Source: an uncultured Victivallales bacterium (GTDB taxonomy: Bacteria; Verrucomicrobiota; Lentisphaeria; Victivallales; UBA1829). Taken from it: a stretch of DNA of 64,000 nt. The position numbers and the translations under genes are program-made. Location: positions 124,001-188,000 of the forward strand of contig CALXRI010000004.1 in NCBI GenBank assembly GCA_944390795.1. The letters run 5' to 3'. The notes under the pieces were generated by a model. The model ran no database searches, was not told where the DNA came from, and saw only the letters and a list, made by a program, of their open reading frames with translations. Each line of letters begins with the position of its first letter. Within the stretch, counting starts at the first letter, position 1. Below are positions 457 through 60,586 of the stretch, piece by piece.

Positions 457-1575
457 ATGGCATTTCCATCGAAACAGAAGGCGATCTACGACCGTCTTGT
501 GCGGGAGATTGCGGAGCGGTATCCGCCGGGTGCGAAACTTCCGCCGGAACGGGCGCTTGCCGCTCGGCTGGGGATTGCGCGCATGACTTTGCGCGGCGCC
601 ATGGCGCGTCTTGCGCGTGAAGGCCGGATCGAAAGAAATGTCCGCGGCACCTTTGCATCCGGAGAAAATCCTCCGCCTGCTCTCGGGGAGAAAAGGCGGA
701 TTGTGCATGTTCTGCTTCCCTGTCCGGATTACACGGTCCGTTCGGGCGCCTCTTCCTGTTCGGCCGTCCGTTCCCTGATCCGCGGCGCTGTCCGGGCCGC
801 GCTCCGCTACGATGCGCAGGTTGTCACGATTCCGGTTTCGGATACGAACGATCCCGCCGCGTTTGACCGGAATCAGCTTGCGCCCCTCAGAAAGAACGAT
901 ATTGTTCTCTTTGTCGGTTCCTGGTATGAAAATCTCTTCCCTCTGCTTGCGGAACGTCAGTGCCGGGTCGGGTTCATTGTCAACGGCGTGGAACGGATTC
1001 CCGCATGCTTCCGGGACGGGAATCTGGCATATTGCGTCTTCTCCCGTCCGATTCTGGCAAATTATCTGCCCGAGGCGCTGCGTCATGCGAAACGCCTGCG
1101 CTTCCGGAAGGTTCTTCTCTTTCTCCGCAGGGATTTCTCCTTGTGCCGCTATCGCACCGAACTTCTGGATGCGGCGTTGAAGAAGGAGACCAGGGAAAGT
1201 CTGCCGATGCAGCTGAAAACTTTCATCTGCCGGAATGACGCTTCCCTGGCGGAAGAGTGCGCGCGGATCCGTTCTCTTTATGAGCGAGAGGCTTTTGACG
1301 CATTGATCTTCGATGCGGAAACGAAGGCCCGGTTCCCGCTTTCTCTTCACCGCCTCTGCAATCTTCCGTCCCATGTCGCGATTTATGTCCGCGGAATTGA
1401 TTTTCTCTGCGGGAGCGCGGAGGAAAGAAAACACCTTTATTTTTCCCGTCCCGCGTTTCGCGAGTGCGGCAGCGCTCTCGCCGACTATTTCCTTTCCGGA
1501 GAGCGGCACGGGGGGAAAATCCTGAATTTCAGGCATATCCTTGTGAATGGAGACAAAATATGGAGGAAAAGATGA
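457..1575 (+). CDS. GntR-family transcriptional regulator with periplasmic-binding-protein-like effector domain
   Basis: 372 aa. The N-terminal 75 residues are a GntR winged helix-turn-helix: the phrase [20 protein letters not shown] is the diagnostic helix pair, followed by a wing ([10 protein letters not shown]). The remaining ~290 residues have the alternating strand/helix pattern of LacI/AraR-type sugar-sensing domains (for example [10 protein letters not shown] and [12 protein letters not shown]), but the ligand cannot be read. The start has an ACGGAG Shine-Dalgarno site. It heads a same-strand set with a pseudopilin, a DUF4838 protein and an FAD oxidoreductase, so it probably controls uptake or degradation of a particular glycan (inference). 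A second regulator of this architecture lies at 59573-60586. Confidence 0.8.
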
Positions 1576-1693
1576 AAGACCAGAAAGGCGGAAACGGGGA
1601 GCGGATGATCCGCATTCCGGAGCTCATGCTGCCGGAAGCTGCCGGTGTACCAGAACTCATGTCTGCCGGGAATTCCGGGAAACGGAGGCGGTC

Positions 1694-2416
1694 ATGAAAC
1701 AACGCTTTACATTGATCGAGCTGCTGATCGTGATCGCCGTCATTGCGATTCTGGCGGCCCTGCTTCTGCCTGCGCTCAACAACGCCAGAAGCATTTCCAT
1801 CGGGATCAAATGCCTGTCCAACATCCGGCAGATCGGCGGCATTTATGCGCTCTACGGGACGGACTACCGCGATCAGATTCCTTCTCCTTATTCCATGCGG
1901 AACAATTCCGGAGCGGATTATTCTTTCTTCGGAAAACTTGCCTCTCTTTATAAAATTCCGTTCGGGAAAAATGCGGAAAACGGGATTTTCCGCTGTCCGG
2001 CCTATCCGAGGGAAGGGTATCTCGGGAATTCCTTCTACACCAGTTACGGAGGGAACACCTACGGGCTCACCAGGCAGCAGTCTCCGTCCGCATCCGGCGC
2101 AAACCAGCGGACAACCGTGTTTTTCAAGCAGCCGTCCAGAACGGTGTTCCTGGGAGAAAACCACAACCATCACAGGGTCGACATGGCCGGGACGGTTCTG
2201 CCGCCGGAAACCCATACGAATGCGACCATTGCATTCCGCCACAACGGGAAGGCTTCCTTTTCCTTCGCCGATGCGCATGCGGAACAGCGGTTGAAAAAGG
2301 CGGTTCCCTGCGTGCAGGGGTATCCGTTCATGACATCAGGCGCGGATCTGCTTCTTCTGAAAGGCAGCTACTTCTGGCATGCCTTTGCAACCGCGGAAGC
2401 TTTCAACGGAATGTGA
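1694..2416 (+). CDS. Type II secretion/type IV pilin-like pseudopilin, H-x9-D family
   Basis: 240 aa. The N-terminus [20 protein letters not shown] is a prepilin leader plus the hydrophobic alpha-helix used for membrane anchoring; peptidase cleavage is expected just before FTLIE. The C-terminus carries [14 protein letters not shown], i.e. H-x9-D, the mark of the PVC-group pseudopilin expansion. An open frame extends upstream to 1547, but the GGAGG site at 1684-1688 sits correctly for the ATG at 1694. It lies between the regulator and the DUF4838 gene, only 11 bp before the latter. Role unproven: it may be an extracellular or pseudopilus-borne accessory of glycan capture. Confidence 0.85.
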
Positions 2417-2427
2417 GGAGACCGAAT

Positions 2428-5274
2428 ATGAAAATCATTCTTCTGCTTGTCTGCGCGGCCATGAGCATGAACGCCTCGGAAATGACGATCGTGCGGGACG
2501 GGCGCCCGGAAGCGGTCATTGTTCTCAGGAAAAAGCCGACCGCCTCCGCCCAGATGGCCGCCTTTGAGCTCAACCACCATATCGAGATGGTGACCGGAAC
2601 CAGACTCCCGGTGAGGACGGAAGAAGGCATCCCCGGAAAAATACGGATCGAACTCGGCGGCGATGCGGAGCCTTCCGCGCATGAATACTCTTCCGTTCAG
2701 TTCCGGAAAGACCGCATTCAGATCCGGGGTTCCGATACGGCCGACTTTCACAAGGTTGACTACGGAAACAGCGCGACTTTCCCGAAAGGCTCTTACGGAA
2801 CGCTTTTCGCCGTCTACGATTTTCTGGAACGCTTCTGCGGCGTCCGCTGGTACGGACTGACCGACGATGCCACGGCGTTTGTCCCGCGAAGGACGCTGAC
2901 GCTGGAATGCCGGGATTTCCTGCACATCCCGAAAACGGACGCCTTCCGGAGCATTTACAACTCCGGCGGACGGGCGCAGACTTTGCGTGTCCTCTCCTAC
3001 ACGCCGCGCGACGAGGCGCTGATGAAATACCGCTGGCGCTGCGCCGCTTTTTTCGGACAGACCAATCACAATCTCTACCGGATTTACTTCACATACTGGG
3101 ACCGGGCGAAAAAGCCTGCGTATGCCGCGCTTTTCCGCGGCCGGAAGCCGGAGTATTTCGCGCAGGGATATGCGGGGAAAATGATGCCTCTTGACGGATT
3201 TCTCCGGCGGGAATACCCCGATGACCCGGACTGTCCGCCGGGCATCTGCTTTTCCTCTCCGGGTCCCGTGGAGTTCTTCGCGGAACAGGCCGTCGATCAG
3301 TGGAACGGAAAACCGATGCCCGGACTGCCTTCCGGCGGCGCTTACCTGAAACGTCTGCCGGGAAGACCCTTTTTCTCATCGGTTCAGCATCTGGATACGC
3401 AGGGACCCTGTTACTGCGCGGCATGCGCAAAACGGGCCGCGGAGAACGGACAGAACCATCTGATGTGGCAGTGGATTGCCGACATTGCGAACGCCGCGGG
3501 CGCAAAACAGCCCGGACTCGGAATCTCCACGCTGGCATACCAGCGGACCCTGGCTTATCCGGAACACGTGAAGCTGCCGGAGAATCTGTGCGTTCAGCTC
3601 TGCCTGGGCATTCATGCGTGGTGGAATCCGGAATTCTACCGGATCCAGCATGATGAAATTTACAGGAAATGGATGGAAAACAAAGGCGGCCGGGTCATGA
3701 CATGCTGGCTGTACCTGTTCGGACCGGGATGGGACTCCAAGACCCGCTACAGGCATAAATTCTTTCCCGGCGTCTATCCGCGCCATGCGGGGCGGATCGT
3801 CCGGGAGATGGTGCGGGACGGCATCCGGGGCGCGTTCCTCGAATGCGAATGGTCGCGCAACATGCTGGAAGTCTATCTTGCCGCCCGGCTCTTTTACGAT
3901 TCCGAACAGGATGTGGATGCGCTGCTGGACGAGCATTTCCGTCTTTTCTACGGACGGTCCGGCGATGACATGAAGGCGTTTTTCACCGAACTGGAGAACA
4001 TCTACTGGAATTGGAGGAATTACCCCGCGTCGATGTTCGGAAAGAACGGCGTGGCGTCGCGCCTGCGCGCCCATTCGCTGGGAACCGGAATGCTCAGCGC
4101 GGCGAACAACTGGAGTGTGGGGACTGCGGGGCGCATGAAACGTCTGTCCTCCCTGATCGACGCCGCGGAGGCGAAGGCGGACACCCCGTTGATCCGGAAG
4201 CGGATTTCCTGGATCCGGAAGGGTTTCTGGGATCAGGCTCTGGAAGGATACCGGGATCATCAGAAGAGGATGAAGCTTGAACGGATGCCGGAAAAAAGCA
4301 TTGTCATTGCGCGCTGTCCCGACGCGGACGGGAATCCGGATGCCGTGGACTGGACACTCGGAACCTCGGCGGGAGACGCGCACACGCTGGAGGACGGCAC
4401 CGTGCTTCCGAACACATTCCGTTTGAAACTTGCCGCGGACAGCCGCTATCTGTACTTCGACTTTCTGGAGGAGCGGAATCAGACGCAGCCCCGTCTCTGG
4501 AAAAATTTCTTTGAGATTTTTCTTTCGGCCGACGGCGCCATGCCGGTGACGCAGATCGCTTTCGCTCCATCCACGAAGACGCCGCTGTGCTACCGGACGG
4601 AAATGGTGAACGATGTCACCCATACCGGAACCTTTTCCCCGCCTCTGAAATTCCTCAGCACGGCGGAGGAGGGGAAATGGCGCTGGCGGATGGCGCTTCC
4701 TCTCTCCGTGATCGGTCCGGAGAGCCATCGGCGCTTCCGGATGAATTTCCGCCGTTTCCGGGAGGATTGCAAACTGGTCTGGAACAAGTTTTTCGCCTCG
4801 GCGCCCGATTGCGTCGGTAATATGGGATATGTCTCCATACGCGGCGGAAGTCCGACCGCCGTGAAGCTGGGATTCCATGAGGGGAGAATCCGCGGGGAAA
4901 TCGCCTCGTGGCATCTTTCCCGGGGAACAATCCGTTTCTCCTCCGTTCCGGATGCCGCCGATGTGGTGATGAAGGCGAAAGACGCTCTCATCAGCGCGGA
5001 GAAGATTCCCGTGGTGCAGGGTGAAACGGTCCGCATCCGGTGGAGGGCGGAGGGGGATCGTCTCCCCCGCTGCGGGCTTCAGTTTTTCAAGGGGTCCGGA
5101 CCGGGGAGCGGCGTCCTGCGCGGGAAAACGGGCCGGAAGAAGGGGGATCTCCGGGAAAGCCTCTTTTCCGTTCCGGAGGGGGCGACGGCCTGCCGCTGCG
5201 TCTTTTCCGCGGACGGCCCGCTTGCATTCCGGCTCTCGGATGTCACGGTTTCAACAGGAGAAAACATGCAATGA
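2428..5274 (+). CDS. Secreted DUF4838 protein with N-terminal alpha-glucuronidase-like fold and C-terminal CBM9-like domain
   Basis: 948 aa. Residues 1-18 are a signal peptide (MKIILLLVCAAMSMNA). The next ~120 residues have the FELNHHIEMVTGTRLPV pattern of the GH67/GH20-type N-terminal alpha/beta domain that precedes DUF4838. The central part contains FAVYDFLERFCGVRWYG and a C-x-C-x2-C motif (CYCAAC, ~residue 328) shared with the two other DUF4838 proteins here. From ~620 a CBM9/DOMON-like beta domain follows (DSRYLYFDFLEE). An in-frame GTG at 2413 lies upstream, but the GAGGAG site at 2415-2420 favours ATG 2428. The family is common in Lentisphaerota and Planctomycetota. Catalysis is not established and I assign none. 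Confidence 0.8.
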   Translation: MKIILLLVCAAMSMNASEMTIVRDGRPEAVIVLRKKPTASAQMAAFELNHHIEMVTGTRLPVRTEEGIPGKIRIELGGDAEPSAHEYSSVQFRKDRIQIRGSDTADFHKVDYGNSATFPKGSYGTLFAVYDFLERFCGVRWYGLTDDATAFVPRRTLTLECRDFLHIPKTDAFRSIYNSGGRAQTLRVLSYTPRDEALMKYRWRCAAFFGQTNHNLYRIYFTYWDRAKKPAYAALFRGRKPEYFAQGYAGKMMPLDGFLRREYPDDPDCPPGICFSSPGPVEFFAEQAVDQWNGKPMPGLPSGGAYLKRLPGRPFFSSVQHLDTQGPCYCAACAKRAAENGQNHLMWQWIADIANAAGAKQPGLGISTLAYQRTLAYPEHVKLPENLCVQLCLGIHAWWNPEFYRIQHDEIYRKWMENKGGRVMTCWLYLFGPGWDSKTRYRHKFFPGVYPRHAGRIVREMVRDGIRGAFLECEWSRNMLEVYLAARLFYDSEQDVDALLDEHFRLFYGRSGDDMKAFFTELENIYWNWRNYPASMFGKNGVASRLRAHSLGTGMLSAANNWSVGTAGRMKRLSSLIDAAEAKADTPLIRKRISWIRKGFWDQALEGYRDHQKRMKLERMPEKSIVIARCPDADGNPDAVDWTLGTSAGDAHTLEDGTVLPNTFRLKLAADSRYLYFDFLEERNQTQPRLWKNFFEIFLSADGAMPVTQIAFAPSTKTPLCYRTEMVNDVTHTGTFSPPLKFLSTAEEGKWRWRMALPLSVIGPESHRRFRMNFRRFREDCKLVWNKFFASAPDCVGNMGYVSIRGGSPTAVKLGFHEGRIRGEIASWHLSRGTIRFSSVPDAADVVMKAKDALISAEKIPVVQGETVRIRWRAEGDRLPRCGLQFFKGSGPGSGVLRGKTGRKKGDLRESLFSVPEGATACRCVFSADGPLAFRLSDVTVSTGENMQ

Positions 5275-5753
5275 AACATCTGGCAGCTCTCGTTTTTCTG
5301 TTTTGTTCCGCTTTTCTGACGGCGGATGAACTTTCCGAAGTGCAATGGCCGCCGGAAAACAGCGGGATTCCCGGCTGGAACGGGACATTTTCCGTGGGAA
5401 AAGGCGGCGGGATGGTCGTGAAAAAAGGTGTCGTCCACACCAGGAGCAAATATCCGGCCGGCGGCAGGCGCATCCTGAATGTCCGCTTCGCCTTGAAAGG
5501 GACCGGCGCGGGAATCGGGCTGTATTACTATGACCGGGCGGGCCGTCTCTTGGGAAGGGATCCCGAACGGATTCCGAATGCGGAGAACACGCGGGTTTTC
5601 CACGCCGTCTTCAAGATTCCGGACAGATGGGAAGGCAAGGAGATTTCTTCCTTCCGGATTTATTTCTCAACCGGAAGCGGGATGGCATTGTCGCAGTTTC
5701 ATGCGGATTTGCAAACGGGGAAAGGGATTGCAGATGTTCCGGAAAAATTATGA
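5271..5753 (+). CDS. Small secreted protein of unknown function (beta-rich, carbohydrate-binding-like)
   Basis: 160 aa. The ATG overlaps the stop of the DUF4838 gene (ATGA), so translation is probably coupled. A signal peptide is clear (MKHLAALVFLFCSAFLTADE). The mature part is beta-strand rich with aromatic patches such as GIGLYYYDRAGRLLG and SSFRIYFSTGSG, similar in style to the C-terminal sugar-binding-like halves of the proteins at 49270 and 52474. The gene ends inside the start of the next reading frame (20-nt overlap). I recognise no named family. Confidence 0.7.
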   Translation: MKHLAALVFLFCSAFLTADELSEVQWPPENSGIPGWNGTFSVGKGGGMVVKKGVVHTRSKYPAGGRRILNVRFALKGTGAGIGLYYYDRAGRLLGRDPERIPNAENTRVFHAVFKIPDRWEGKEISSFRIYFSTGSGMALSQFHADLQTGKGIADVPEKL

Positions 5754-6888
5754 CATTGCGGTGTGCGGCGCCGGAGTGGCCGGCGTCGCGGCGGCTCTGG
5801 CATGCGCGCGCCGGGGAATGAAAACCGCGCTGATCGAGAAGACGACGCAGCCGGGAGGTCTTGCTACGGGAGGTCTTGTGCTGGTCTATCTGCCGCTCTG
5901 CGACGGACTGGGGCGCCAGATGATCTCCGGCATTTCCGAGGAACTGCTTCTCGCCGCCAACCGCTACGGTCCGCGCAATCCCAATTTCGAATGGCGGACG
6001 CACGGCAGATACACCGCGAGGTTTTCCCCGTCCTCCTTTGTGCTGGCCCTTGACGAACTTCTGGAGGAATCCGGCGTGGAAGTCTGGCTTGACACGCTGA
6101 TTACGGGTGCGGAAACCGAACATGGCCGTCTGGTTTCCATTTCCGTGTCCAACAAGAGCGGTCCGGGAAACATTTCCGCAAACGTCTTCGTGGACGCCAC
6201 GGGAGACGCCGACGTTGTGCATCTCGCCGGGCATCCCTGCCGTTTCTCGGAGAATTCCATGACTTTCTGGGTGATCGAGCACAACGAAAATCAGCGTTCC
6301 AGCAACGATCTTGACCATTCCTGCCAGGTCGCCGTCCATGCGGACCCGCTGGAAAACGTTTATACCTGCGACCCCCTGAGCGGGAAAATGGTGACCGATT
6401 TCATACTGGAAGGGCGCAGGCGTTACCGGAGACTCCTGAAGACGGAGTATGCCGCCGGGATCGCCTCGCGGACTTCCCATTATCCGATCTCCCTGCAGAC
6501 CGTGCCGCCCATCCGGAGGGGACGTTCCGTCGTCGGGCGTTTTACATTGGATTCCACCATGGCCGGGCGTTCCTTTGATGACTCTGTCGGCGTCTTCGGC
6601 GACTGGCGGAAGAAAGGACGCCTCTGGCAGATTCCCTATCGGGCGCTGCTCCCCGCGGAACTCGCCGGCGTGCTGGTCGCCGGCCGCTGCATTTCCGCAA
6701 TCGGAGACGCATGGGAGGCCACGCGCGTCATTCCGGTTTCGGCAATGACCGGCGAAGCCGCCGGGACCGCCGCCGCACTTGCCGCGGCGGAAAACCGCCT
6801 CCCGCATGAACTGGATTATCCGCGCCTCGAAAGGGAGCTTCGTGAAAGAAACGGGTTCCGCCTTGCCTTCCCGCAGAGCGCCATCTAA
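5734..6888 (+). CDS. FAD-dependent oxidoreductase (FAD_oxidored / PF12831 type)
   Basis: 384 aa. The Rossmann motif GAGVAG lies at residues 12-17 after a short beta strand, with IEK as the ribose-binding acid region, then TQPGGLATGG as in PF12831 proteins. The second FAD fingerprint VFVDATGDADV is typical of the family. The C-terminal LVAGRCISAIGDA and VIPVSAMTGEAAGTAAA complete the FAD fold. No signal peptide, so cytoplasmic. It overlaps the preceding gene by 20 nt and is the last gene of the cassette; a terminator follows at 6908-6940. Substrate unknown; a sugar-derived compound released by the upstream secreted proteins is inference. Confidence 0.8.
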   Translation: MFRKNYDIAVCGAGVAGVAAALACARRGMKTALIEKTTQPGGLATGGLVLVYLPLCDGLGRQMISGISEELLLAANRYGPRNPNFEWRTHGRYTARFSPSSFVLALDELLEESGVEVWLDTLITGAETEHGRLVSISVSNKSGPGNISANVFVDATGDADVVHLAGHPCRFSENSMTFWVIEHNENQRSSNDLDHSCQVAVHADPLENVYTCDPLSGKMVTDFILEGRRRYRRLLKTEYAAGIASRTSHYPISLQTVPPIRRGRSVVGRFTLDSTMAGRSFDDSVGVFGDWRKKGRLWQIPYRALLPAELAGVLVAGRCISAIGDAWEATRVIPVSAMTGEAAGTAAALAAAENRLPHELDYPRLERELRERNGFRLAFPQSAI

Positions 6889-6907
6889 AGGATTTCCGGA
6901 GATTGTT

Positions 6908-7076: not shown

Positions 7077-7079
7077 TTT

Positions 7080-7182: not shown

Positions 7183-8658
7183 ATGGTTTATGACGTGGCC
7201 GTCATCGGCGCGGGCGTCAGCGGCGCATCAACGGCATGGCGCCTGTCGCGCTATCAGCTGCATACGGTTCTGCTGGAGTGGCGTTCAGATGTCGGCTTCG
7301 GGGTTTCCAAGGCGAATTCCGGAATCATTCATGCGGGCTTCCATCACCAGCTTTCCACCCTGAAGGCGCGACTGGAGATTCGCGGCAACCTGATGTTCGA
7401 GGCGCTTCAGCACGAGCTCGGATTTCCGTTCCGGCGGACGGGAATTCTCGTCGCGGCATTTTCCCGGGAGGAGATGGCCACGGTTCACAAACTCTACGAG
7501 CAGGGGATCGCAAACGGTGTGCCGGGCATGGAAATGTGCGGGCGGGAGCGTCTGCTTCAGCTGGAAAAGAAGCTGAATCCCGAGGTGATCGGCGGCTGTT
7601 TCGCGCCGGGCGGGGGGACGATCGAACCATACCGCTATGTGTTCAGTCTGGTCGAGTCCGCGACGCGGAACGGGGTATGCCTGAAATGCGATTTCGAAGT
7701 TGCGGAGGCGTCGCGCGCGGAGGATGTCTGGAGGATCCGTTCCTCTTCCGGCGCGGAGGTGCGCGCGCGCTATGTCGTCAATGCGGCGGGGCTTTTTGCC
7801 GACCGCGTTTCCGGGATCTTCGGCGCGGAGGAGTTCACGATCCATCCCCGGAAAGGGGAGGAGTATCTGCTGGACCGCAGCAGCGCGGCGCGGCCGGAAC
7901 GGGTTGTCTTCCCGGTTCCGGGCGCGCATTCCAAGGGGGTGCTCGTCATCCCGACCGTCGAGGGGACGACGATGATCGGCCCGACTTCGGATGCGGTCGA
8001 TGACAAGTTCGACACGGCGGCAAGCGCGGAACAGATGCAGCGGATTCTTTCGCATGTCCGGAATCTGATTCCCGGAGTGTCACCGCGCGACCTGATTACC
8101 TCGTTCGCGGGGCTGCGCCCGGTCATGGACAACGAGGATTTCTACATCGCGCTGTCGGAAAAGGCGCCCGCGTTTGTGCAGGTGGCGGGGATCCAGTCGC
8201 CGGGCCTGACCGCGTCTCCGGCGATCGGGGAGTATGTCAAGGACCTCCTGAAAAGCGCGGGACTTCCGCTGCTGGAAAAGGTCCATTTCGCCGTCGAGCT
8301 CGCTCCGCGGCACGAGGTGCGGCATGAATCGCCTGCCGCACTGGACCGCCTGCACAGCGGGAATCCGGCATGGACGCACATCGTCTGCCGGTGCGAGAAA
8401 ATCTCCGAGGCGGAAATAGTCGAGGCGGTCCGCAAGGGACACACCACGCTTGACGGTGTCAAGTTCTACACCCGCGCCGGAATGGGACGCTGCCAGGGCG
8501 GTTTCTGTGCGGCGAGGATCATGAGAATCATCAGCAGGGAGACGGGAATCCCGATGGAGGAACTGACGAAAAAAGGCGGAAACAGCCGTCTTGCCGCCGG
8601 ACGCCTTGGCGATCTTCCGGTGAATACTGCGGAAGTGCGCGGAGGAGAAGGGGCATGA
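7183..8658 (+). CDS. GlpA-like FAD-dependent (glycerol-3-phosphate) dehydrogenase with C-terminal BFD-like [2Fe-2S] domain
   Basis: 491 aa. GAGVSG at residues 9-14 is the FAD site; NSGIIHAGFHH is the GlpA/LhgO-type active-site loop. The C-terminal third contains CRC at ~402 and CQGGFC at ~438, the four-cysteine pattern of the bacterioferritin-associated-ferredoxin-like [2Fe-2S] domain in anaerobic GlpA. Length fits GlpA-like proteins of Firmicutes and Thermotogota. AAGGAG precedes the ATG. The stop overlaps the next start (ATGA). With the two following genes it forms the GlpA / FAD-oxidoreductase / DUF1667 set that replaces E. coli GlpABC in many anaerobes. 2-Hydroxyglutarate or another 2-hydroxyacid substrate remains possible. 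Confidence 0.85.
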   Translation: MVYDVAVIGAGVSGASTAWRLSRYQLHTVLLEWRSDVGFGVSKANSGIIHAGFHHQLSTLKARLEIRGNLMFEALQHELGFPFRRTGILVAAFSREEMATVHKLYEQGIANGVPGMEMCGRERLLQLEKKLNPEVIGGCFAPGGGTIEPYRYVFSLVESATRNGVCLKCDFEVAEASRAEDVWRIRSSSGAEVRARYVVNAAGLFADRVSGIFGAEEFTIHPRKGEEYLLDRSSAARPERVVFPVPGAHSKGVLVIPTVEGTTMIGPTSDAVDDKFDTAASAEQMQRILSHVRNLIPGVSPRDLITSFAGLRPVMDNEDFYIALSEKAPAFVQVAGIQSPGLTASPAIGEYVKDLLKSAGLPLLEKVHFAVELAPRHEVRHESPAALDRLHSGNPAWTHIVCRCEKISEAEIVEAVRKGHTTLDGVKFYTRAGMGRCQGGFCAARIMRIISRETGIPMEELTKKGGNSRLAAGRLGDLPVNTAEVRGGEGA

Positions 8659-10282: not shown

Positions 10283-10285
10283 AAC

Positions 10286-50040: not shown

Positions 50041-50069
50041 GACGACATACTCCATGGGGTTCCGAATTG

Positions 50070-52454: not shown

Positions 52455-52473
52455 CCTGAAAACAGCCTTTTTG

Positions 52474-53469
52474 TTATTGATCCATTTTGATGACTTCCTG
52501 CGTCACCCGGATGGATTCGAAGGCGACATTCTTTCCTCCGTAGACCAGCATCCGCAGATACGCCGCGTTGTCCGGCGCAATGAAGTTGCCTTTTCCGGAT
52601 CCGTCCGCCTTTTTGACAAGAACCGTGCCGCCGCAGTTCTTGAGCTGTTTCATGTCTTTGTCAAAAAATATCACCTGGATCCGGGCGCCCTGAAGCGGAT
52701 TCGGGGCAAGTTTCGCCTCGATTACGTAATTCTTTCCCCCCTCGACAGGGACGGGATCGCCGCTGGCCCAGCTTGCGACGTTCAGAGAATACCCTTTTTT
52801 GTCCGGACGCTCCGTCATGCGGATGTTGATTCCGTATCCCGCCTGTCCGAATCCGGAATGGTCGTATTTTCCCAGCTTGAATTCCGGATTGATGTTGAGC
52901 GCGTCCTCCGTGAAGGTTTCCAGTTTCAGGTCGTCAATGAAAACCTTGTTTTCCGGAGACGGATTCTCAAAGCGGATTTTCATCTGCGTCGCACCCGGAG
53001 CGGGATAAAAGACATCGCTGCAGGTCCGGAACTGATTGGAGAGGATCACCTTGTGATAGGGAAACAGAATATGCGGGTTGCAGTATTTCGCCGTTTCGGA
53101 GGAAAACGTCAATCCCCATCCCGGCAGTTTCAGACCTTTGCTGCTCCGGTTGACGTCATAGAAGGCGTTTTCCAGCTGGGGATTTTCCTCCAGGCTGTCG
53201 GGACCGACGGAGCGGGCGCGGAAGGTCAGGCGGTATTTTGTTTTCCTGTCCACCTTCACGGCTTTGAAGATGGCCGAGGATTTCGGGCCGAGTTCCAGAA
53301 GGCGGCCGCTTTCCCCTTCCGGAGCCTTTACCAGAGCCGCGCCGCGGGACATTCCTTCCATTGCGGGGGCCAGCTTGTCCGCACCGTCAAAGTTTTCATT
53401 TAAAATCGTCTCCGCGCAGAGAGGCGACACCGCAATGGCGAGGCATCCGATCATCATTTCCAGTTTCAT
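52474..53469 (-). CDS. Secreted carbohydrate-binding-like protein, partner of DUF4838 protein C
   Basis: 331 aa. Signal peptide MKLEMMIGCLAIAVSPLCAE. An N-terminal ~180-residue beta sandwich (ETILNENFDGADKL, YRLTFRARSVG, KIRFENPSPENKVFIDDLKL) is of the CBM4/9/22 jelly-roll style; a second domain matches the 49270-50040 protein. AAGGAG is 7 nt before the ATG at 53469, whereas the upstream in-frame start has no site. Second gene of the operon, after the pseudopilin. Ligand unknown. Confidence 0.75.
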   Translation of the reverse strand: MKLEMMIGCLAIAVSPLCAETILNENFDGADKLAPAMEGMSRGAALVKAPEGESGRLLELGPKSSAIFKAVKVDRKTKYRLTFRARSVGPDSLEENPQLENAFYDVNRSSKGLKLPGWGLTFSSETAKYCNPHILFPYHKVILSNQFRTCSDVFYPAPGATQMKIRFENPSPENKVFIDDLKLETFTEDALNINPEFKLGKYDHSGFGQAGYGINIRMTERPDKKGYSLNVASWASGDPVPVEGGKNYVIEAKLAPNPLQGARIQVIFFDKDMKQLKNCGGTVLVKKADGSGKGNFIAPDNAAYLRMLVYGGKNVAFESIRVTQEVIKMDQ

Positions 53470-53576: not shown

Positions 53577-54407
53577 TCAGTTGTTGTCAAATCCCGAGTG
53601 TGTGTTCCTCCACCAGCGGGTATATTCCCTGTTCTGATACCGCAGCGACTCCTCGTAGACTTCCCTGCTTTTCAGGTTGATGACAGAATTGTCCGACAGA
53701 AGGGCGTTCACGCTGAGCTGATGCCTTCCGAAAAAAAGATCGGGATTGTTCGGCGCCTCCACGCCGGTGAGCGGAGGGATGGCGAACAGGCCTCCCAGAC
53801 CGGGAAGGGAAATGCCGGCGGTCTGCGGCTGCTTCGTCGTTTCCGTACAGATATAATTCGGATGTGTCTCGTTCCGGAGGGAATCCATGCTGATGAAGAG
53901 AGACGAGTGCTGCGGAAGGCGCATTGCCTTTCTCGAAAAAGTCATGCTGCGCATGATCGCCGCGTTGCATCCGTAGGCGCCGCCGTACATCGGGCATACG
54001 GTCGTGCTGGTTCCGACGCGCGGCGGGTTCGGGGTGTTCGGACACACCAGCGCCGTGGTGCGCTTGTAATAAGTTTCGTTTTTCAGTCCGAGATACTGTG
54101 CGATTTTCTGATACCATGCCTCTCCAGTGGTGGCATGATTTGTCGGATAATAGTCCTTGTTGTCGTTCAGATACATGCCGAACGCCATCCCCTGCTGGCG
54201 CAGACGGCCGACGCAGTCGATTCTTTTTGCCGTTTCCCTGGCGCGTCCCAGCGCCGGAAGGAGCATGGCGGCCAGAATTGCGATGATGGCAATCACAATC
54301 AGAAGCTCTATCAATGTGAAATTCTTCATCCGTCCGGCAGGACAGTATCCGGGAAACATCTTCCGGGAGTCATCATGTTTTCCGGGGCTGCTGCAATATG
54401 CGGTCAT
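53577..54407 (-). CDS. Pseudopilin, H-x9-D family, with unusually long leader
   Basis: 276 aa from the ATG at 54407, which has an excellent AGGAGG site 8 nt away. The prepilin motif [20 protein letters not shown] begins only at residue 27, so the leader would be about 29 residues instead of the usual <10; the internal ATG at 54329 has no ribosome site. C-terminal signature [14 protein letters not shown] (H-x9-D). Eight cysteines in the globular part suggest disulfides. First gene of an operon that continues with two [carbohydrate-binding + DUF4838] modules; promoter and a palindrome lie upstream. Confidence 0.82.
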
Positions 54408-54436
54408 TCGTTTTTCCTCCTGCGTGTCCGATTGAT

Positions 54437-54452
54437 GCTACTTCGTAGTAGC
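54437..54452. promoter_or_regulatory. Operator-like palindrome GCTACT-TCGT-AGTAGC
   Basis: Perfect 6-bp arms around TCGT, centred about 14 bp downstream of the expected start of the pseudopilin operon transcript. Its position suits a repressor site. No regulator gene is in this operon, so a regulator elsewhere would bind. Confidence 0.5.
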
Positions 54453-54465
54453 TTTATCTGTTTCT

Positions 54466-54493
54466 ATTATAATCGGAATTGAGGAAAATGCAA
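54466..54493 (-). promoter_or_regulatory. Promoter of the pseudopilin-DUF4838 operon
   Basis: Minus-strand TTGCAT (54493-54488) and a perfect TATAAT (54471-54466), 16 bp apart, about 60 bp before the ATG. Confidence 0.65.
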
Positions 54494-54671
54494 TACCGGG
54501 AAAGAAATTTTCCGCGTTTTTTTTTGCAATGCACGGTCAGGAGAAAGAAAAGGGGTGCCGTCGAATCCGTAGGAAGAGTGTGCGCGTTTCAGGGGCGGAT
54601 GATGGGCCGTGAACAGTCATGCCGTTTCCGGAACAGGTCAAGCCCGTTCCCGCGATGCAAGACGCCGGGAA

Positions 54672-54708
54672 CGGATTTTCCCCTGCGCCGCGTGGCAGGG
54701 AAAATCCG
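54672..54708. terminator. Strong hairpin downstream of the LamG-like gene
   Basis: CGGATTTTCCC-C-TGC pairs with GCAGGGAAAATCCG with one bulged C and an 8-nt loop. It lies 46 nt past the LamG-like stop on the minus strand. There is no separate U tract, so it could be a stability hairpin instead. Confidence 0.45.
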
Positions 54709-54753
54709 GAAAACCCCCTGCCGCAGCCTGGCGCTTCAGCTTCTGATTCTGTG

Positions 54754-55560
54754 TCAGAACAGCTGCTTTCTGGCAAGAACACCCCGCACGGCATGGTAAT
54801 ACTCCCGGATGGTGTCTTCATCCAGGGCGGAATCAAACAGAATGAACTCGTCAAAACGCGTTCCGATTCCGATGCTGCGCCCGAATGTGATGCCGCCGGC
54901 TGCTTTCCCTGCGGGAAGCGCCCGTTCCAGGTTTTTCTGCTTCAGAAGTTTCCCGTCCAGATAAAAGGCGACGTTTTTCCCGTTGCAGGATATTGCCGCG
55001 TGATGCCACTCTTCCGGGGAATGATCTCTGCTGAAATCGCCGGTCGCGGCATGATGGAGGTTCACGGAGCCCGGCAGATGATAGGCCTGACAGTAGAGGC
55101 CTGTTTTCTTCTGTCCGCCGATCCGGTTCAGACGGTCCTTGAGGAACATGGAAATCCAGCCGACGCTTTTCTGCGTTCCCGGAGGAAGTTCCCGGGAATG
55201 ATAAAGAAGATTGACTTCCGAACCCGGCGCCGGCGCTCCGTCGGTTTGGAACCAGACGGATACGGTTCCGCCTCCGCCCGGGGCAAGATCGCCTCCGGCA
55301 AGATGCCAGCCGATGGACCCCGGATCGAATGTGATGCAGGATCCCGTCAGTCCGTCCGGCCTGATCGCGGATTTGTTTGTCCGGATCTTCCATTGGCACG
55401 ACGGGTCGCGCAGACTCGCGGGCGTGTCGAAGCCGTTCCGGTAGACAACGTGCCCTTTCAGATTTTCCGGGAGCGGAATTTCCTCCGCGGGAAGAGGAAC
55501 AAGGGAGAGAGAACATGCAAACACGGCAAATGCGCATGAGAGTTTTTTTTCCGGATTCAT
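54754..55560 (-). CDS. Secreted LamG/concanavalin-A-like lectin-domain protein
   Basis: 268 aa with signal peptide (LSCAFAVFACSLSLVPLPAEE). The body has the LamG-type jelly-roll markers: GTVSVWFQTDGAP, EEWHHAAISCNGKNVAFYLDGK and FGRSIGIGTRFDEFILFDSALDEDTIREYY. These domains bind glycans; no catalytic residues are apparent. The ATG overlaps the stop of the 1097-aa protein (ATGA). Last gene of the minus-strand operon that begins at the Gfo/Idh gene. Confidence 0.8.
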   Translation of the reverse strand: MNPEKKLSCAFAVFACSLSLVPLPAEEIPLPENLKGHVVYRNGFDTPASLRDPSCQWKIRTNKSAIRPDGLTGSCITFDPGSIGWHLAGGDLAPGGGGTVSVWFQTDGAPAPGSEVNLLYHSRELPPGTQKSVGWISMFLKDRLNRIGGQKKTGLYCQAYHLPGSVNLHHAATGDFSRDHSPEEWHHAAISCNGKNVAFYLDGKLLKQKNLERALPAGKAAGGITFGRSIGIGTRFDEFILFDSALDEDTIREYYHAVRGVLARKQLF

Positions 55561-58500
55561 TTTTCATTTCTTTCCCTGTTTTTGAATTCCAGCGCGAGAA
55601 CCTCATAGGGGTTCAGCTTCAGCGTGAGGCGGCCGTTTTCCGTGGCGACGGATCCGCCCGTTTCAAAATTCGAGACGCTCCACCCCGCGGGACAGCGGAT
55701 TCCGACGTTCTCCTTTCTCCCGCTGTAGGAGCAGAGTCCGAGCAGCGCCTTTTTCCCCGGAACGCGGTGAATGATCCAGGCGATTTCCCCGTTTCCGACG
55801 GAAAAGTCAGGACATTTCCTTTCATCCCAGTAACGGAAGGTCTCCAGGGCGGGATCGTGCAGATATTGCGCGTGAACGGCCAGGTTGAGGGATTTCAGCG
55901 GTTTTGTCGGGACGAAATTGTAGCGGTCCAGCATATGAACCAGCGTCACTCCGGCGAAGGAGCGCTGAATGTCTTCCCGGTCCGCCAGGGGACCGGCGTC
56001 GTTGCACACAAACGGAGTGACTCCTGCCAGTTCTCCATGGGAGACAATCTGGCAGTAGTCCCGGCTGAAGCGGGTCTGCACCGGTCCCGCCGAGCGTTTC
56101 CATTCCCAGTCCAGCTGATAGGTGGCAAAGGAGAGCAGGGGGAGAATGGACAGGGAGGTCATGTGAGGCAGCGTGACAGGCGCCATGCCTTCCTCGCACA
56201 TCATGACGAAGGCGCGCTTGACCATTTCGCGCATCTGCCAGATACCGGCGGCGGGAACGACGCTTCCGTCCGCCGCGCGGTAGGCGTCGGTCATTTCCGT
56301 ATTGTAGGTGGGAACGATCATCATGTTGTCCCAGTAGATGCCGTTGTTCCGGTACCGGAAACTTTTCCTGTGCCAGTACAGCGAATAGTCGATATAGCTT
56401 TTGCTCGGAATGATGAAAATCTCATTGATGGACGGCACATAGCGCCGGGATTCGAAATCCGCGGCGGTCCACTCGTTCATGAATGTGGGGTATTCATCCA
56501 GTCCGTTGTAAACGGAGCGGTTGTAGTAGAAAATCATGCTTCTGCCGTAACTCGCTCCCCGGACGATTCTGTGGTACACGGTCCGGTTGTATCCTTTCTG
56601 ATAATCCGGCACGTCATAGGCTTTGAAATAACGGTCCGCGATCCGGATCAGGCTGTCGGCCGTTTTTTTGCGTTCCTCCCGCTGCGCCGGGGTCCTGACC
56701 GGTTCCGTATTCGCCTTTGCGAGCGCTTCCCAGAAAATCATTTCGCGTCCGGGGGGATAGACGCAGGCGCAGCAGCCGGGACCGCCGAGCCAGTTGACGT
56801 CCGTGCCGAGCACCGTGTATTTGTTGTCGATCCAGCGTGTCGCCCAGTCCGCCGGACGCGGCTTGACCGGCGCGGCCAGAAGCCCGAAGGAGAGCGTGCG
56901 CGCCTCCGTCACGGCGAGCGGCGCATTGACCAGATGGATGCGGAGGATCAGTTCCCCGCCTTTTCTCTCCACCTCCAGATTCGGCGTGCCGTGTTTCCAT
57001 CCCCAGTTCCGGTCGTTTTCCGCAAAGAAGCAGAGTCCCCGGTGCGCGCTGCCGAGATAGAGGTAGTTGCAGAAGCCCTCCGGCATGTTTTTGACAAGCG
57101 GAACATCCGTCGATTTCCACAGGATTCCGGGACGCTGTTCCAGGCGTTTCAGCCTGATATCGCGCATCATGCCCGCATAGGCGACGGGGATCAGTTCCCC
57201 TTTCAGCGGAATTTCCACTGTCAGACGCTCCACTCTGCCCGGCTGCAGCGTCAGATCGTATTTCAGCGCGCCATCATATTCCCAGCGCCCGGATGCGACG
57301 GCCGAAAAGCCCTTTCCCGTCAGAATCGACGAGGTTCTTACGCAGTCCTCCGCCTTTTCCCGGAAGGAGAGGGAGCCGGAAACCGCCTCCCCGTTGGCGA
57401 GAATGCGGCTTCCCGATGCAAGAAGATCGACTCCTTTGACCGTGATCTGTTCCGGGAGTCCGGTTTCCGCAAGACGATGTTCCCGCAGAACGGTTCCGAT
57501 GGTGCGCCCGCCGACCGTCATCGGCGTGAAAGGCGGATACACTTTGCGCGAGAGTCCGAGTTTGTTGTTTTCCCATTCGAAATGTTTGCGTTCCAGTTCT
57601 TTTTCCAGCGTCGCGCCGTTCATGTCAAAAAGAAGTCTGTATTTCCCGTTCAATTCCGGAACGGTGAATTCCGATATCGCGCCGTCCTTCCCCGGCAGGA
57701 AGTTTTTCCATACCGTCTTTCCGGTCTCCCGTTCCACCAGCGACACCGGAATTTTTTCAGGAATTCTGCCTTTGTAGGAGCGCAGCATGTTTTCAATCCG
57801 GAGTTTCCGCGCATAAGGGTAATGCGCGAACTCGAAATCAAAGGCGCTGACCGGAGCGGATGCAATGACCCAGCGCAGTTTCCGCGGGGGGACCGTCCAG
57901 ACATGCTGAAGAGGAATGAGCTCTTTTCCCGATTCGTCTTTCAGGGAAAGGGAAAGCTTGAAATCCGTGCAGGTGTTTCCCGTCAGTCTGGAGTCGAAAC
58001 GGAGATTTGCCGCTTCCCCCGGATTCAGCTGAAGGTCCTCCTCCTTCCGGGAGTCCGGCATATGGTTGTTGGTCAGCAGAACGGCGAAGCGGAACTTCCG
58101 CCGCGTCTGAGCCGTGTTCCGGACGGCAAGCGTCATGTCGATGTGTTTCAGAAAGGGATCCTTGTTCCAGCGGAATGCGAGAGCGGGATTTTCCCGGGAA
58201 AAGACGATGCGCACGTTTCCTCCGTTGAACTGTCCGGGGATGGAGGAGAAGACAAGCGGACGCATCCAGCTGCGGCAGATGCTGATTCCCCACGGCGATC
58301 CCGCAATTCCGCGCTTGAAAAGCGTCAGGGGAAATTTCACTTCGACTGTCCAGTTTCCGTTCCCTTTCGACTGGCGGAATTCCACCCCGCTCCGGCTCCA
58401 GTCCGGTTTCTCCGCCTTTCCGCGCGGCAGCGCATCGAAATCCGCGTTGCCGGCCGCATTCACCAGCAGATGGTAATTGATTCCCGACGCCGCATCCGGA

Positions 58501-58850
58501 GCGGGATCAACGAAAAACTCCGCAATGTCTTCAAAACAGGCCTGCACCCCCTTGCGCTGTTTGCCTGTGACCAGGCTCCTGTCCTCCGGCAGTTCCGTTT
58601 CCAGCGCAAGATAGAGCGCCTTTCCGTCCGTGCCGATGAAAGCCCTTGCGCGCCGCCATTCCAGAGCGCCTCCGTTATGCTGCCTCACGCCGTCGAAAGA
58701 GAGCGTTTCCTCCCATTCTCCGGGGGAAATCTTTCCGTCCAGCAGCGGCGCTTTCCGCATGACGGGGGCGGAAAAGTTCAGGTTTCCGCCGGCGGCGCAG
58801 AGCGACGCTGCCGCCAGAACGCCCAGAGCGGTCATTGCGATTTTGTTCAT
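55557..58850 (-). CDS. Large secreted protein: CBM9-like N-terminus plus glycoside-hydrolase-like region (GH123/DUF6067-like)
   Basis: 1097 aa with signal peptide (MNKIAMTALGVLAAASLCAAGG). Residues ~25-230 form a CBM9/DOMON-like domain (APLLDGKISPGEWEE, KALYLALETELPE). Middle beta domains follow to ~560. The ~650-1000 region resembles a barrel hydrolase: GTDVNWLGGPGCCACVYPPG, EYPTFMNEWTAADF, NNGIYWDNMMIVPTYNT, then a small C-terminal beta domain. Proteins with this layout in Lentisphaerota are usually labelled glycoside-hydrolase-domain or DUF6067; the activity is not known and I do not assign it. AAAGGA precedes the ATG. Confidence 0.7.
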   Translation of the reverse strand: MNKIAMTALGVLAAASLCAAGGNLNFSAPVMRKAPLLDGKISPGEWEETLSFDGVRQHNGGALEWRRARAFIGTDGKALYLALETELPEDRSLVTGKQRKGVQACFEDIAEFFVDPAPDAASGINYHLLVNAAGNADFDALPRGKAEKPDWSRSGVEFRQSKGNGNWTVEVKFPLTLFKRGIAGSPWGISICRSWMRPLVFSSIPGQFNGGNVRIVFSRENPALAFRWNKDPFLKHIDMTLAVRNTAQTRRKFRFAVLLTNNHMPDSRKEEDLQLNPGEAANLRFDSRLTGNTCTDFKLSLSLKDESGKELIPLQHVWTVPPRKLRWVIASAPVSAFDFEFAHYPYARKLRIENMLRSYKGRIPEKIPVSLVERETGKTVWKNFLPGKDGAISEFTVPELNGKYRLLFDMNGATLEKELERKHFEWENNKLGLSRKVYPPFTPMTVGGRTIGTVLREHRLAETGLPEQITVKGVDLLASGSRILANGEAVSGSLSFREKAEDCVRTSSILTGKGFSAVASGRWEYDGALKYDLTLQPGRVERLTVEIPLKGELIPVAYAGMMRDIRLKRLEQRPGILWKSTDVPLVKNMPEGFCNYLYLGSAHRGLCFFAENDRNWGWKHGTPNLEVERKGGELILRIHLVNAPLAVTEARTLSFGLLAAPVKPRPADWATRWIDNKYTVLGTDVNWLGGPGCCACVYPPGREMIFWEALAKANTEPVRTPAQREERKKTADSLIRIADRYFKAYDVPDYQKGYNRTVYHRIVRGASYGRSMIFYYNRSVYNGLDEYPTFMNEWTAADFESRRYVPSINEIFIIPSKSYIDYSLYWHRKSFRYRNNGIYWDNMMIVPTYNTEMTDAYRAADGSVVPAAGIWQMREMVKRAFVMMCEEGMAPVTLPHMTSLSILPLLSFATYQLDWEWKRSAGPVQTRFSRDYCQIVSHGELAGVTPFVCNDAGPLADREDIQRSFAGVTLVHMLDRYNFVPTKPLKSLNLAVHAQYLHDPALETFRYWDERKCPDFSVGNGEIAWIIHRVPGKKALLGLCSYSGRKENVGIRCPAGWSVSNFETGGSVATENGRLTLKLNPYEVLALEFKNRERNEK

Positions 58851-58870
58851 GAAACATCCTTTCCCTGTTT

Positions 58871-59555
58871 TCATTTTTCACTCCATGGATAACTGGTGAC
58901 AGCGACATTGGTCGGGTAAGCGGGGATGGACCTGCGGGTGCGCGTTTCGGCATGCCCGTCAAAAAAGAAAAAGTTTCCCGTTTCCCTGTGACGGAATGCC
59001 GCGAAGCGGATTTCGTCCGCGGTTTCCAGCGCCTTGTGCCCGAATTTTTTCTGTATCATCCAGGAGTTTGTATTGTTGACGCCGCAGCCGACTTCCCCCC
59101 CCCTGCATCAGGCGGGAGGCGCTTTTCACGTTTCTCCGTCCGCGCGCCGTGGCGGAAACATTGGTTCCTGACGCTCCGTTGAGGGCAATGTCGAAGGCCC
59201 GTCTGCGGATGGTTTCCACCGCCGGACATGCAAGGGATCTCAGTCGGGCGGAACTGCCGTCCTCCAGGAAGTAGTAGATTTTCCGCGTATTGAATATGCC
59301 TGCATTGTTCAGCAGTTCAATCCAGCAGACATAGGTTACGCCGTTATGATACATGTAGGGCATGAAATACGCGTAGGAGTCATAATACTGGGCGCAGAGG
59401 AGCGCCGACTGTTTTACGTTGTTCAGACAGCTCATGGCCCGGGCTTTTTCCCGCGCCGTGCCGAGAGCCGGCAGAAGGAGCGACGCCAGAATGGCAATGA
59501 TCGATATGACAATAAGAAGTTCTATCAGCGTGAATGAATTTCCCCGTTTCATCAT
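58871..59555 (-). pseudogene. Pseudopilin, H-x9-DG family, reading frame broken at a G9 run
   Basis: Starts [20 protein letters not shown] behind AGGAAG. The frame is normal for ~150 codons, then at the run of nine G (plus-strand C 59095-59103) it shifts. The original frame ends without family features at 58959, while the other frame continues GEVGCGVNN and ends with [17 protein letters not shown], the exact H-x9-DG signature, stopping at 58871. With eight G the frame would be continuous (227 aa). Causes could be true mutation, slippage-based switching or an assembly error. It lies between the GntR-type regulator and the 1097-aa protein gene. Confidence 0.75.
59095..59103 (-). repeat. Homopolymer G9 (minus strand) inside the pseudopilin gene
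   Basis: Nine C on the plus strand, at the exact point where the two halves of the pseudopilin change frame. Tracts of this length are prone to slippage in replication and transcription and to sequencing miscounts. Confidence 0.9.
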
Positions 59556-59572
59556 TTTCTTCCTCTCCCGTT

Positions 59573-60586
59573 TCATATTCTGATTTTCTCCGGTTCGATC
59601 ATTGTGAAATTCCGTTCCTTTCCGGAGAGGGCCAGCGCGTTCTTCCACATTTTCGTCAGGTTCAGCGGAACCGATGGAAATTCATGCCCGGGGAAGGAGG
59701 AATAAAGCATATTGAATACGCCCGCCTTCGGCAGGGAGAGCAGAGCCGGACACTCTTTCGCGGCCAGTTCCAGGAGCTTGGCGATATAATAGTCGGAAAC
59801 CGCGAAGAGCGCGTCGGGCATTCCGCGCGCCGCAAGGGATTTCAGGCTTGCGGGTTCCTGCCGGATCTCTTCGAAGGAAAAGGGCAGGAGTTCCTTTCCA
59901 AATGTGAATCCGGAGAGTTTTTTCAGTTCCTCCAGAATCTTCTGGCGGAACGGCATCTGGTATTTGTGCGCGTTGACGAAGAGGATTTTCCGCGCCCTGC
60001 TGCTTTCCCGGAGAAAGCGGAGCCCTTCGGCGTAGACGGCCGCATAATCCGTGATTACCGCGTTCCGAGGAGTTTCATCCCACTCCCAGCGGTTGACGAA
60101 AATATGCGGGATATCTTCCAGAAGGGCATGCACCAGTTCCAGCGGGAACAGCCGCCCTTCCAGATCCAGCAGCACCTTTTCCGGGGAACGTCTGCGGATT
60201 TTGTTCATGACATCGGCAAAATTCACCGGAGTCACCCGGCAGATCATCGGAAGCATTCCGGCCCCTTCCGCTTCCCGGAGAAAAGAGTCGATGTAGTTTT
60301 CGAAATTGTCCGTTTCCATGGAGATGACCAGAACCGCAAGGCGCGAGGGGCCGAATCTGAGCTGCGGATTCACGAAGGTGCCGCTTTTGGGCTTTCTGAT
60401 GATGATCTGCCGGTTTTCGAGAAGATTGCACACTTCGCTGATGACGGTGTCGCTGCACTGGAAACGTTCCGCCATTTCCCGCCGGGAGGCCAGACGGATG
60501 CCGGGCGCCAGCTTCCCGCCGAGAATTTCATCTTCCAGGATCTGGTAGATTTTCTGCTTTTTGCTTGTTTCCGTTACGAGCTTCAC
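59573..60586 (-). CDS. GntR-family regulator with sugar-sensing (LacI/AraR-like) C-terminal domain
   Basis: 337 aa. N-terminal winged [23 protein letters not shown], then [19 protein letters not shown] and GTFVNPQL. The rest is a periplasmic-binding-protein-like sensor ([37 protein letters not shown]). The start is GTG at 60586 with AGGTGA in front; another in-frame GTG at 60595 has no site. Same architecture as the regulator at 457. It lies 42 nt after the Gfo/Idh gene and 17 nt before the pseudopilin. 10-bp tandem repeats upstream of this gene match those in the Gfo/Idh promoter, suggesting autoregulation. Confidence 0.82.

Follow-up and report, generated by a model that had tools for sequence, protein, structure and literature searches.

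What is a single pseudopilin gene doing at the head of a series of genes for secreted, glycan-acting proteins? The question arises from a 64,000-nt stretch of contig C4 in the genome of an uncultured Victivallales bacterium (this stretch is called the window, and coordinates are window positions unless a contig is named). Three loci in the window each contain one pseudopilin gene, and an initial annotation had proposed that they share a common plan, with a pseudopilin of the H-x9-D type directly upstream of the secreted-protein genes that it serves. The genes named there are present, and about a hundred such cassettes were found across the genome (G000; 3.44 Mb in 66 contigs, 95% complete). 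It is clear that the linkage of regulator, pilin and DUF4838 genes in G000 is not due to chance.

Gene order around the pseudopilins

Pilins were located in G000 with PF07963 (94 places) and TIGR04294 (E up to 1; 64 matches, 14 of them not downstream of the 94), and 80 stretches around pilin matches were read. Genes came from a small codon-usage caller aided by the pilin motif; gene and signal-peptide calls are our own heuristics, checked by inspection only. Once two regular-expression false hits and four canonical pilin-like genes had been dropped, the set comprised 100 non-canonical pilins, those of the window included; a degenerate protein at C8:89055 is uncounted, and C62:662 and C3:190751 lie outside the stretches read. 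Three pilins missed by the caller (C5:28770, C47:3361 and C53:9740) were restored by position, with that of C62, for the placement test described below, which used 104 pilins and a guessed length for C62. The genome carries about 104 H-x9-D-type pseudopilins, or roughly one per 33 kb.

The gene following the pilin (+1) is co-directional with it in 94 of 97 cases, and in 83 of these 94 the gap is at most 150 bases. The preceding gene (-1; median 354 aa) is co-directional in 79 of 98, with a regulator-to-pilin gap of at most 60 bases in 56 of the 79 pairs, 18 of which overlap. Proteins that are both secreted-like and co-directional occur at +1 in 62/97 versus 8/98 at -1. Under a second, more tolerant rule, a protein with a signal peptide-like (SP-like) start was found among the contiguous +1 to +3 genes of 78/97 cassettes and among the -1 to -2 genes of 12/98; 19 of 101 background genes were SP-like. 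Polytopic proteins were seen once each at +1, +2 and +3. The claim of exactly one pseudopilin per cassette is borne out by the three window cassettes and nearly throughout G000, one exception being a pilin immediately preceded by a degenerate H-x9-DG protein (C8:89055-90679); it does not extend to relatives, where three pilins stand in a row in one cassette of genome G006 (L133:5112-7350) and three likewise in locus L096.

Neighbour families were assigned with Pfam (E up to 0.001), the +1 proteins being scanned as 53 + 44, and the tallies cover the 25 commonest families of each set (for +1, 25 of 41 and 25 of 38). The 97 distinct -1 proteins, on either strand, comprise GntR (25), LacI (16) and AraC-type HTH (12) matches, i.e. 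53/97 provided that no protein matches two of these families, and Peripla_BP_3 domains occur in 30. Among the matches listed for the 97 +1 proteins are DUF4838 (16), Laminin_G_3 (9), CBM9 (8), the GH67 N-domain (7), GH42 (5) and a GH20 domain (4), with single rhamnosidase, heparinase-like, esterase and pectate-lyase-like proteins and also single proteins without a glycan connection, such as an ABC transporter ATPase and an O-antigen ligase. In a background sample (120 of 167 genes) from the same stretches there were 5 AraC and 2 DUF4838 matches; GntR and LacI are absent from its 25 most frequent families, a list that reaches down to 2 members per family.

The linkage was also examined from the partner genes, with 2000 runs in which pilins were placed uniformly within their own contigs on a random strand. 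Among the 51 GntR matches in G000 (48 over the cut-off), 25 are followed on the same strand by a pilin that starts 0.5-1.6 kb downstream; the random runs gave a mean of 1.2 and a highest value of 6, and the mirror orientation gave 0. For LacI the same arrangement was found in 18 of 40 matches (39 over the cut-off), with a random mean of 0.9 (highest 5) and again 0 in mirror orientation. The 46 DUF4838 genes (47 matches, of which two were parts of a single gene and were counted once) include 28 with a same-strand pilin 0.3-3 kb upstream (random 2.6, highest 9; mirror 3) and 4 with an upstream pilin on the opposite strand, and a pilin lies within 6 kb of 32 (random 4.9, highest 13; mirror 6). 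Chance adjacency is ruled out by random placement and mirror orientation together.

The cassette plan is repeated in G025, a genome of the same family but another genus, and, less strongly, in G006, from another family. In G025, 80 of 100 stretches were read, with 109 of 129 positions, 5 of 134 listed matches being omitted; for its 114 pilins the +1 gene is co-directional in 105/112 and the -1 gene in 92/112 (median 354 aa), and secreted-like proteins stand at +1 in 72/112 versus 7 at -1. G006 has at least 150 pilin matches (142 on its C1 and 8 on its C2 among the matches listed), of which 51 of the C1 matches, in 40 of 113 merged stretches, were read and the 8 on C2 left out. Its 53 pilins have a co-directional +1 gene in 49/53 and -1 gene in 36/53 (median 351 aa), with secreted-like proteins at +1 in 24/53 versus 1 at -1. 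Among the matches listed for 48 proteins at each position in G006, GntR (13), LacI (9) and AraC (4) were found at -1, and the GH123 catalytic domain (7), GH42 (5) and DUF4838 (4) at +1. An SP-like partner is present in 82/112 cassettes of G025 and 29/53 of G006. The neighbours of the pilins are thus not random, since the pairing with secreted-protein genes, above chance in G000 by the placement test, holds genome-wide and in two other genomes.

When TIGR04294 (E up to 0.1) was run over 59 genomes of the phylum, 12 to 95 matches were found in 14 of 17 genomes from two families (f1 and f2) of the window's order, with one in each of G014, G022 and G034, and 0-2 in three genomes of a third family (f3). 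Outside the order, 39 genomes were scanned: 13-16 matches occur in three of them and no more than 6 in any other. The pilin expansion is strongest in the window's order but patchy, and the ranges inside and outside it touch.

The window cassettes and their pilins

The cassettes span 457-6888 on the forward strand (cassette 1), 54407-46967 on the reverse strand (cassette 2) and 62161-54754 on the reverse strand (cassette 3), with the following features.

457-1575, forward: cassette 1 GntR-family regulator, 372 aa (PF00392, 57 bits)
1694-2416, forward: cassette 1 H-x9-D pseudopilin, 240 aa, [11 protein letters not shown], FTLIELL motif
2428-5274, forward: cassette 1 secreted-like DUF4838 protein, 948 aa, signal peptide-like start (PF16126, 63.9 bits)
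5271-5753, forward: cassette 1 small secreted-like protein, 160 aa, gene model with signal peptide-like start
5734-6888, forward: cassette 1 FAD-dependent oxidoreductase, 384 aa (PF12831, 219.6 bits for a 452-aa ORF)
46967-49273, reverse: cassette 2 second DUF4838 protein, 768 aa (PF16126, 132.2 bits for a 791-aa ORF)
49270-50055, reverse: cassette 2 secreted-like protein, 261 aa, no Pfam match
50070-52454, reverse: cassette 2 secreted-like DUF4838 protein, 794 aa (PF16126, 138.3 bits)
52474-53469, reverse: cassette 2 secreted-like protein, 331 aa, no Pfam match
53577-54407, reverse: cassette 2 H-x9-D pseudopilin, [11 protein letters not shown], 276 aa called, 250 aa from [10 protein letters not shown]
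54550-62170, no strand assigned: approximate extent of the module missing from L092 by its gene order, the whole of cassette 3
54754-55560, reverse: cassette 3 secreted-like LamG protein (Laminin_G_3), 268 aa (PF13385, 32.5 bits)
55557-58874, reverse: cassette 3 secreted-like protein with a GH123_N region, 1105 aa (PF19543, 39 bits)
58959-59576, reverse: cassette 3 pseudopilin, frame-broken, 205 aa as read (PF07963, 27.4 bits; PF07596, 25.2 bits)
59095-59103, reverse: run of nine G (nine C on the forward strand), point of frame change in pilin 3
59573-60595, reverse: cassette 3 GntR-family regulator, 340 aa (PF00392, 44.6 bits)
60629-62161, reverse: cassette 3 Gfo/Idh/MocA oxidoreductase (PF01408, 71.3 bits)
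62243-63031, reverse: AraC-family regulator (PF12833, 73 bits), adjoining cassette 2 in the sibling genome L092

All three DUF4838 proteins pass the PF16126 cut-off of 26.6 bits, and the called start of the 1105-aa protein lies 8 aa ahead of that in the initial annotation (1097 aa). The 331-aa and 261-aa proteins of cassette 2 had been described there as carbohydrate-binding-like, for which the lack of any Pfam match offers no support.

The window pilins all pass TIGR02532 (cut-off 16.3 bits; 20.0-21.2 bits, with 20 for pilin 1 and 21.2 for pilin 2), and only pilin 3 passes PF07963 (cut-off 21.2 bits), pilin 1 scoring 17.5 bits as a 289-aa ORF and pilin 2 20.4 bits. Likewise, the DUF1559 family PF07596 (cut-off 23.3 bits) is reached by pilin 3 alone of the three, with no match for pilins 1 and 2. 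In TIGR04294, for which 21 of the 64 matches in G000 attain the cut-off of 19 bits, pilin 1 scores 16.4 bits (C4:126234-126281) and pilin 3 scores 15.7 bits in another frame; pilin 2 is not among the matches listed.

Over 99 aligned pilins of G000 the invariant residues are Phe(+1), Glu(+5), a Pro (column 26), a Cys (40), a Tyr (54) and the His of H-x9-D (183); a second Cys (CP, column 101) is found in 96 of 97 aligned pilins and the Asp of H-x9-D in 92/99. A plain pattern for H-x9-D, sought after position 80, matches 77/100 pilins in G000, and 47/53 in G006; the spacing or the alignment of the motif therefore varies. The protein is uniform in size, with quartiles of 221-246 aa from the motif on and a longest of 288 aa, and no carbohydrate-binding fusion was found among 267 pilins read. 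A profile search of the PDB gave 19 matches, all pilins, fimbrial proteins or pseudopilins by name, covering at most profile positions 2-111 of 254; the C-terminal two-Cys H-x9-D part had no match in this search.

Of the details of the plan proposed for the window, two require amendment. The reading frame of pilin 3 (58959-59576) lacks H-x9-D, which sits in another frame past the G9 run, where the TIGR04294 match lies (C4:182946-182996, window 58946-58996). In a genome of the same genus, G059, the pilin of cassette 3 is intact (234 aa), and its end and the next gene share 4 bases; it is possible that the break at G9 represents phase variation, a dead gene, or a sequencing or assembly error. 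Furthermore, cassette 2 as annotated had no regulator, and it is the sibling genome L092 (uncultured Victivallales bacterium BRZ_DM bin34; 90-94% nucleotide identity to the window, 96% identity for pilin 2) that reveals one. There, cassette 3 is absent as a whole, the missing piece running from around 54550 to 62170 (the genes from Gfo/Idh through LamG), and the AraC gene stands immediately before pilin 2. All three window cassettes are therefore regulator-first.

Outside the cassettes, three genes at 7183-10282 encode an FAD oxidoreductase with a BFD domain, a pyridine nucleotide-disulphide oxidoreductase and a small Cys-containing protein, a set which we take to resemble that of anaerobic glycerol-3-phosphate dehydrogenase.

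Inheritance of the cassettes

The comparison with L092 shows that cassette 3 was gained or lost as one unit. Beyond a point some 170 bases after the LamG gene, the G059 sequence does not match the window, and so the cassette lies in a different setting there. An insertion signature was considered and dropped, as the search of both edges (54381-54760 against 62101-62420) gave no direct or inverted repeat of at least 12 bases.

Whether the pilin of a cassette travels with its partner, as the initial annotation expected from co-divergence of the two, has a partly affirmative answer. Within G000 the similarity of pilin C-terminal parts is weakly correlated with that of partners (Mantel r 0.085, p 0.0005), and partner similarity correlates with regulator similarity (r 0.10, p 0.001); covariation of pilin and regulator was rejected (r 0.02, p 0.17). 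Some duplicate cassettes match in pilin and partner alike, and the best-scoring pilin pair across cassettes has 42% identity in the C-terminal parts. One case of joint inheritance is a cassette in L094 (ADurb.Bin242) resembling one on C37 of G000: the best match of its pilin among the 100 is the C37 pilin (47.6%, E 2e-59; the next is 26%, E 1e-6), the partners are 53 and 60% identical and the regulator 41%. The pilins of L096, L141 and L143 have no clear counterpart among the 100.

Comparison with G025 gave 21 distinct cassette pairs with a reciprocal-best partner, in 3 of which the pilins are also reciprocal best (chance P 2.6e-5; binomial, with cassette pairs treated as independent), and in 2 of these 3 the regulators are so as well. 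In the co-inherited pairs the identities of pilin versus partner are 30 vs 57%, 32 vs 41% and 76 vs 58%. If only pairs with partner identity of at least 40% over at least 180 aa are considered, there are 5, the pilin being kept in 3 and not in 2. Against the more distant G006, none of 15 reciprocal-best partner rows has reciprocal-best pilins; the partner identity in these rows is at most 33.4% where more than 60 aa align, and one G006 pilin ranked first, not reciprocally. Pilin and partner have therefore been inherited together in some cassettes; in others the pilin has been exchanged or has diverged too far to be recognised.

Possible roles of the pseudopilin

The machinery that the pilins might join is encoded in G000, with 12 T2SSE-type ATPase matches over the cut-off and 9 secretin matches. 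Contig C5 carries genes whose best matches are to GspD, GspE and GspF, at scores below the equivalog cut-offs, followed by a pilin-like gene with Asp at -1 that we take to be GspG-like. Several genes upstream of these, on the same strand, is an H-x9-D pilin cassette (C5:98936, within C5:86573-102646). Further secretion-ATPase clusters are found on C32 and C1 (L090 and L091), and are presumably Tad-type with FHA-like N-termini. The cassette pilins resemble the type II pseudopilins GspG-K in their N-terminal FTLIE helix with Glu5, and differ from them in being present as around 104 dispersed copies with a C-terminal part lacking a PDB match; the window pilins score 20.1, 28.2 and 25.0 bits in the GspG model TIGR01710, far below its equivalog cut-off of 88.85 bits.

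The TonB plug domain PF07715 had no match in G000, the E. coli, Caulobacter and Bacteroides controls being positive, and SusC is therefore unlikely in this genome. This absence accompanies a richness in secreted glycan-acting genes. The initial annotation had likened the cassettes to a polysaccharide utilisation locus (PUL) built without SusCD, and the likeness is strengthened by the lack of TonB plug matches and by the local sugar-type regulators; SusD itself was not searched. The SusCD PULs of Bacteroidota are similar in pairing a local regulator with co-directional genes for secreted glycan-acting proteins, in occurring many times per genome, and in being present or absent as whole loci between relatives. 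They differ in that here a pseudopilin holds the constant place after the regulator and a polytopic +1 protein is found in only 1/96 cassettes of G000, 0/107 of G025 and 0/49 of G006.

Among pilin-like families, those of the DUF1559/H-X9-DG kind (PF07596, TIGR04294) are the same kind of protein with a comparable expansion: Rhodopirellula baltica has 74 DUF1559 genes, termed a solute-binding family in a passage of PMC2754498, and Planctopirus limnophila has 68 paralogues, given in a passage of PMC10632474 as of unknown function, two being essential. Most copies in G000 lie in a regulator-pilin-secreted-protein cassette, whereas these planctomycete passages give no gene context. The Verru_Chthon cassettes (TIGR02596-TIGR02600) are also PVC-type gene cassettes with pilin-like proteins; however, of 8 window proteins scanned with NCBIfam only the pilins match, to the N-terminal motif of protein D with 17.6-19.7 of 70 bits, and proteins A to D do not occur together among these 8. 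A separate pilin-type cassette on C14 of G000 (L058:197-5479) has weak Verru_Chthon A and C matches. No description of the regulator-pilin-secreted-protein arrangement was found in titles and abstracts of the open-licence literature among the matches listed, and the terms "pilin" and "type II secretion" are absent from the main text of PMC6388578, PMC10880615 and PMC8857213.

The interpretation that we favour, to which we would give a little less than an even chance, is that each cassette is a self-contained, substrate-induced module for glycan degradation whose pilin exports or displays the proteins encoded alongside it. Small molecules, in many cases sugars, are the signals sensed by GntR and LacI proteins that carry Peripla_BP domains, and type II secretion offers folded proteins a way out of the cell once Sec has exported them. 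The regulator would sense the sugar signal of its own cassette, and pilin and enzymes would be induced together; the pilin would then insert in the inner membrane and become part of the pseudopilus in a type II secretion machine that the cassettes share, that of the C5 genes, where it may help to export the cassette's proteins or hold them at the surface, its variable loops giving the match. Several observations weigh against this interpretation. A pilin is lacking 0.3-3 kb upstream of 18/46 DUF4838 genes, and inside 6 kb of 14; roughly one GntR or LacI match in two stands outside such cassettes; and 19/97 cassettes in G000 and 24/53 in G006 have no SP-like protein at +1 to +3. DUF4838-type genes in L095 (Lentisphaerae) and L097 (Kiritimatiellae) have no pilin in the stretch read (a 4-sequence alignment gave 6 DUF4838 loci, a 10-sequence alignment having given no usable pattern). 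The covariation inside G000 is weak, the two best-scoring pilin pairs having unrelated partners, and in known type II systems one pseudopilin set serves many substrates. Two AlphaFold2 models built from 9-sequence alignments had a mean pLDDT of 38 and 49. Finally, prepilin peptidases want Gly at -1, and this residue is mostly missing: it is present in 9/100 pilins of G000, 9/114 of G025 and 1/53 of G006, and in none of the three window pilins. Pilin processing and assembly are therefore uncertain, and the peptidase of the lineage must either be relaxed or be inactive on these pilins.

Alternatively, and this is the main rival, the pilin may sit on a type IV-type filament and capture glycan in the manner of SusD, its variable C-terminal domain binding the polysaccharide of its own cassette, a possible reading though hardly a probable one. 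The C-terminal parts diverge strongly between cassettes, and more than the partners in 2 of the 3 co-inherited pairs, in a protein of uniform size with a conserved two-cysteine H-x9-D core, and no TonB plug match was found; type IV pili of Fimbriiglobus ruber are said in a passage of PMC11131199, which also discusses CAZyme clusters and pili, to aid adhesion to chitin. However, no pilin among those read is long enough to carry a fused binding domain, the PDB matches are N-terminal only, no fold is seen at the pLDDT values above and nothing found connects the pilins to a pilus operon. The absence of Gly(-1) could also mean that the pilin is left uncut and forms no filament, acting instead as an inner-membrane anchor or periplasmic scaffold that keeps the enzymes in the periplasm. 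The -1 residue is varied in all three genomes and the partners have Sec-type starts with few lipoboxes at +1 (7 in G000, 2 in G025 and 1 in G006), which would suit an anchor; yet Phe(+1) and Glu(+5), needless for a plain anchor, are invariant in 99/99, and the lack of Gly seems to be a trait of the lineage and not of these pilins in particular, since the GspG-like protein encoded next to the secretion genes carries Asp there. We consider an anchor unlikely. Least probable is that the arrangement is a by-product, the pilins being so common that any neighbour is to be expected, or riding along with regulators without a functional link to the enzymes. At one pilin per 33 kb, three in 64 kb are not unusual in themselves, and the regulator covaries with the partner and not with the pilin; but order and orientation lie far above 2000 random placements and vanish or shrink in mirror orientation, which refutes the chance form, and the plan recurs in two further genomes, while cassette 3 comes or goes between relatives as a complete unit.

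If each pilin does export or display the proteins of its own cassette, the pilin system would replace, and not supplement, a SusCD-type organisation, because no TonB plug domain was found. The lineage, probably Victivallales, might then have a distinct class of polysaccharide utilisation, which we put forward tentatively and think doubtful as it stands: a cassette-specific pseudopilin on one shared secretion or pilus machine would take the place of SusCD, with one regulator, pilin and enzyme set per glycan, around a hundred exchangeable modules and no need for Gly(-1). DUF1559-type pilin-like families are very large in the two model planctomycetes, and the position of the pilin in a cassette provides a testable idea, one pilin per glycan. 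If true, this would go some way towards explaining how glycans can be degraded by a bacterium that lacks TonB receptors; it would supply a simple rule for finding new glycan-acting enzymes, namely the genes that follow a pilin; and the substrate of each cassette would become approachable through its regulator.

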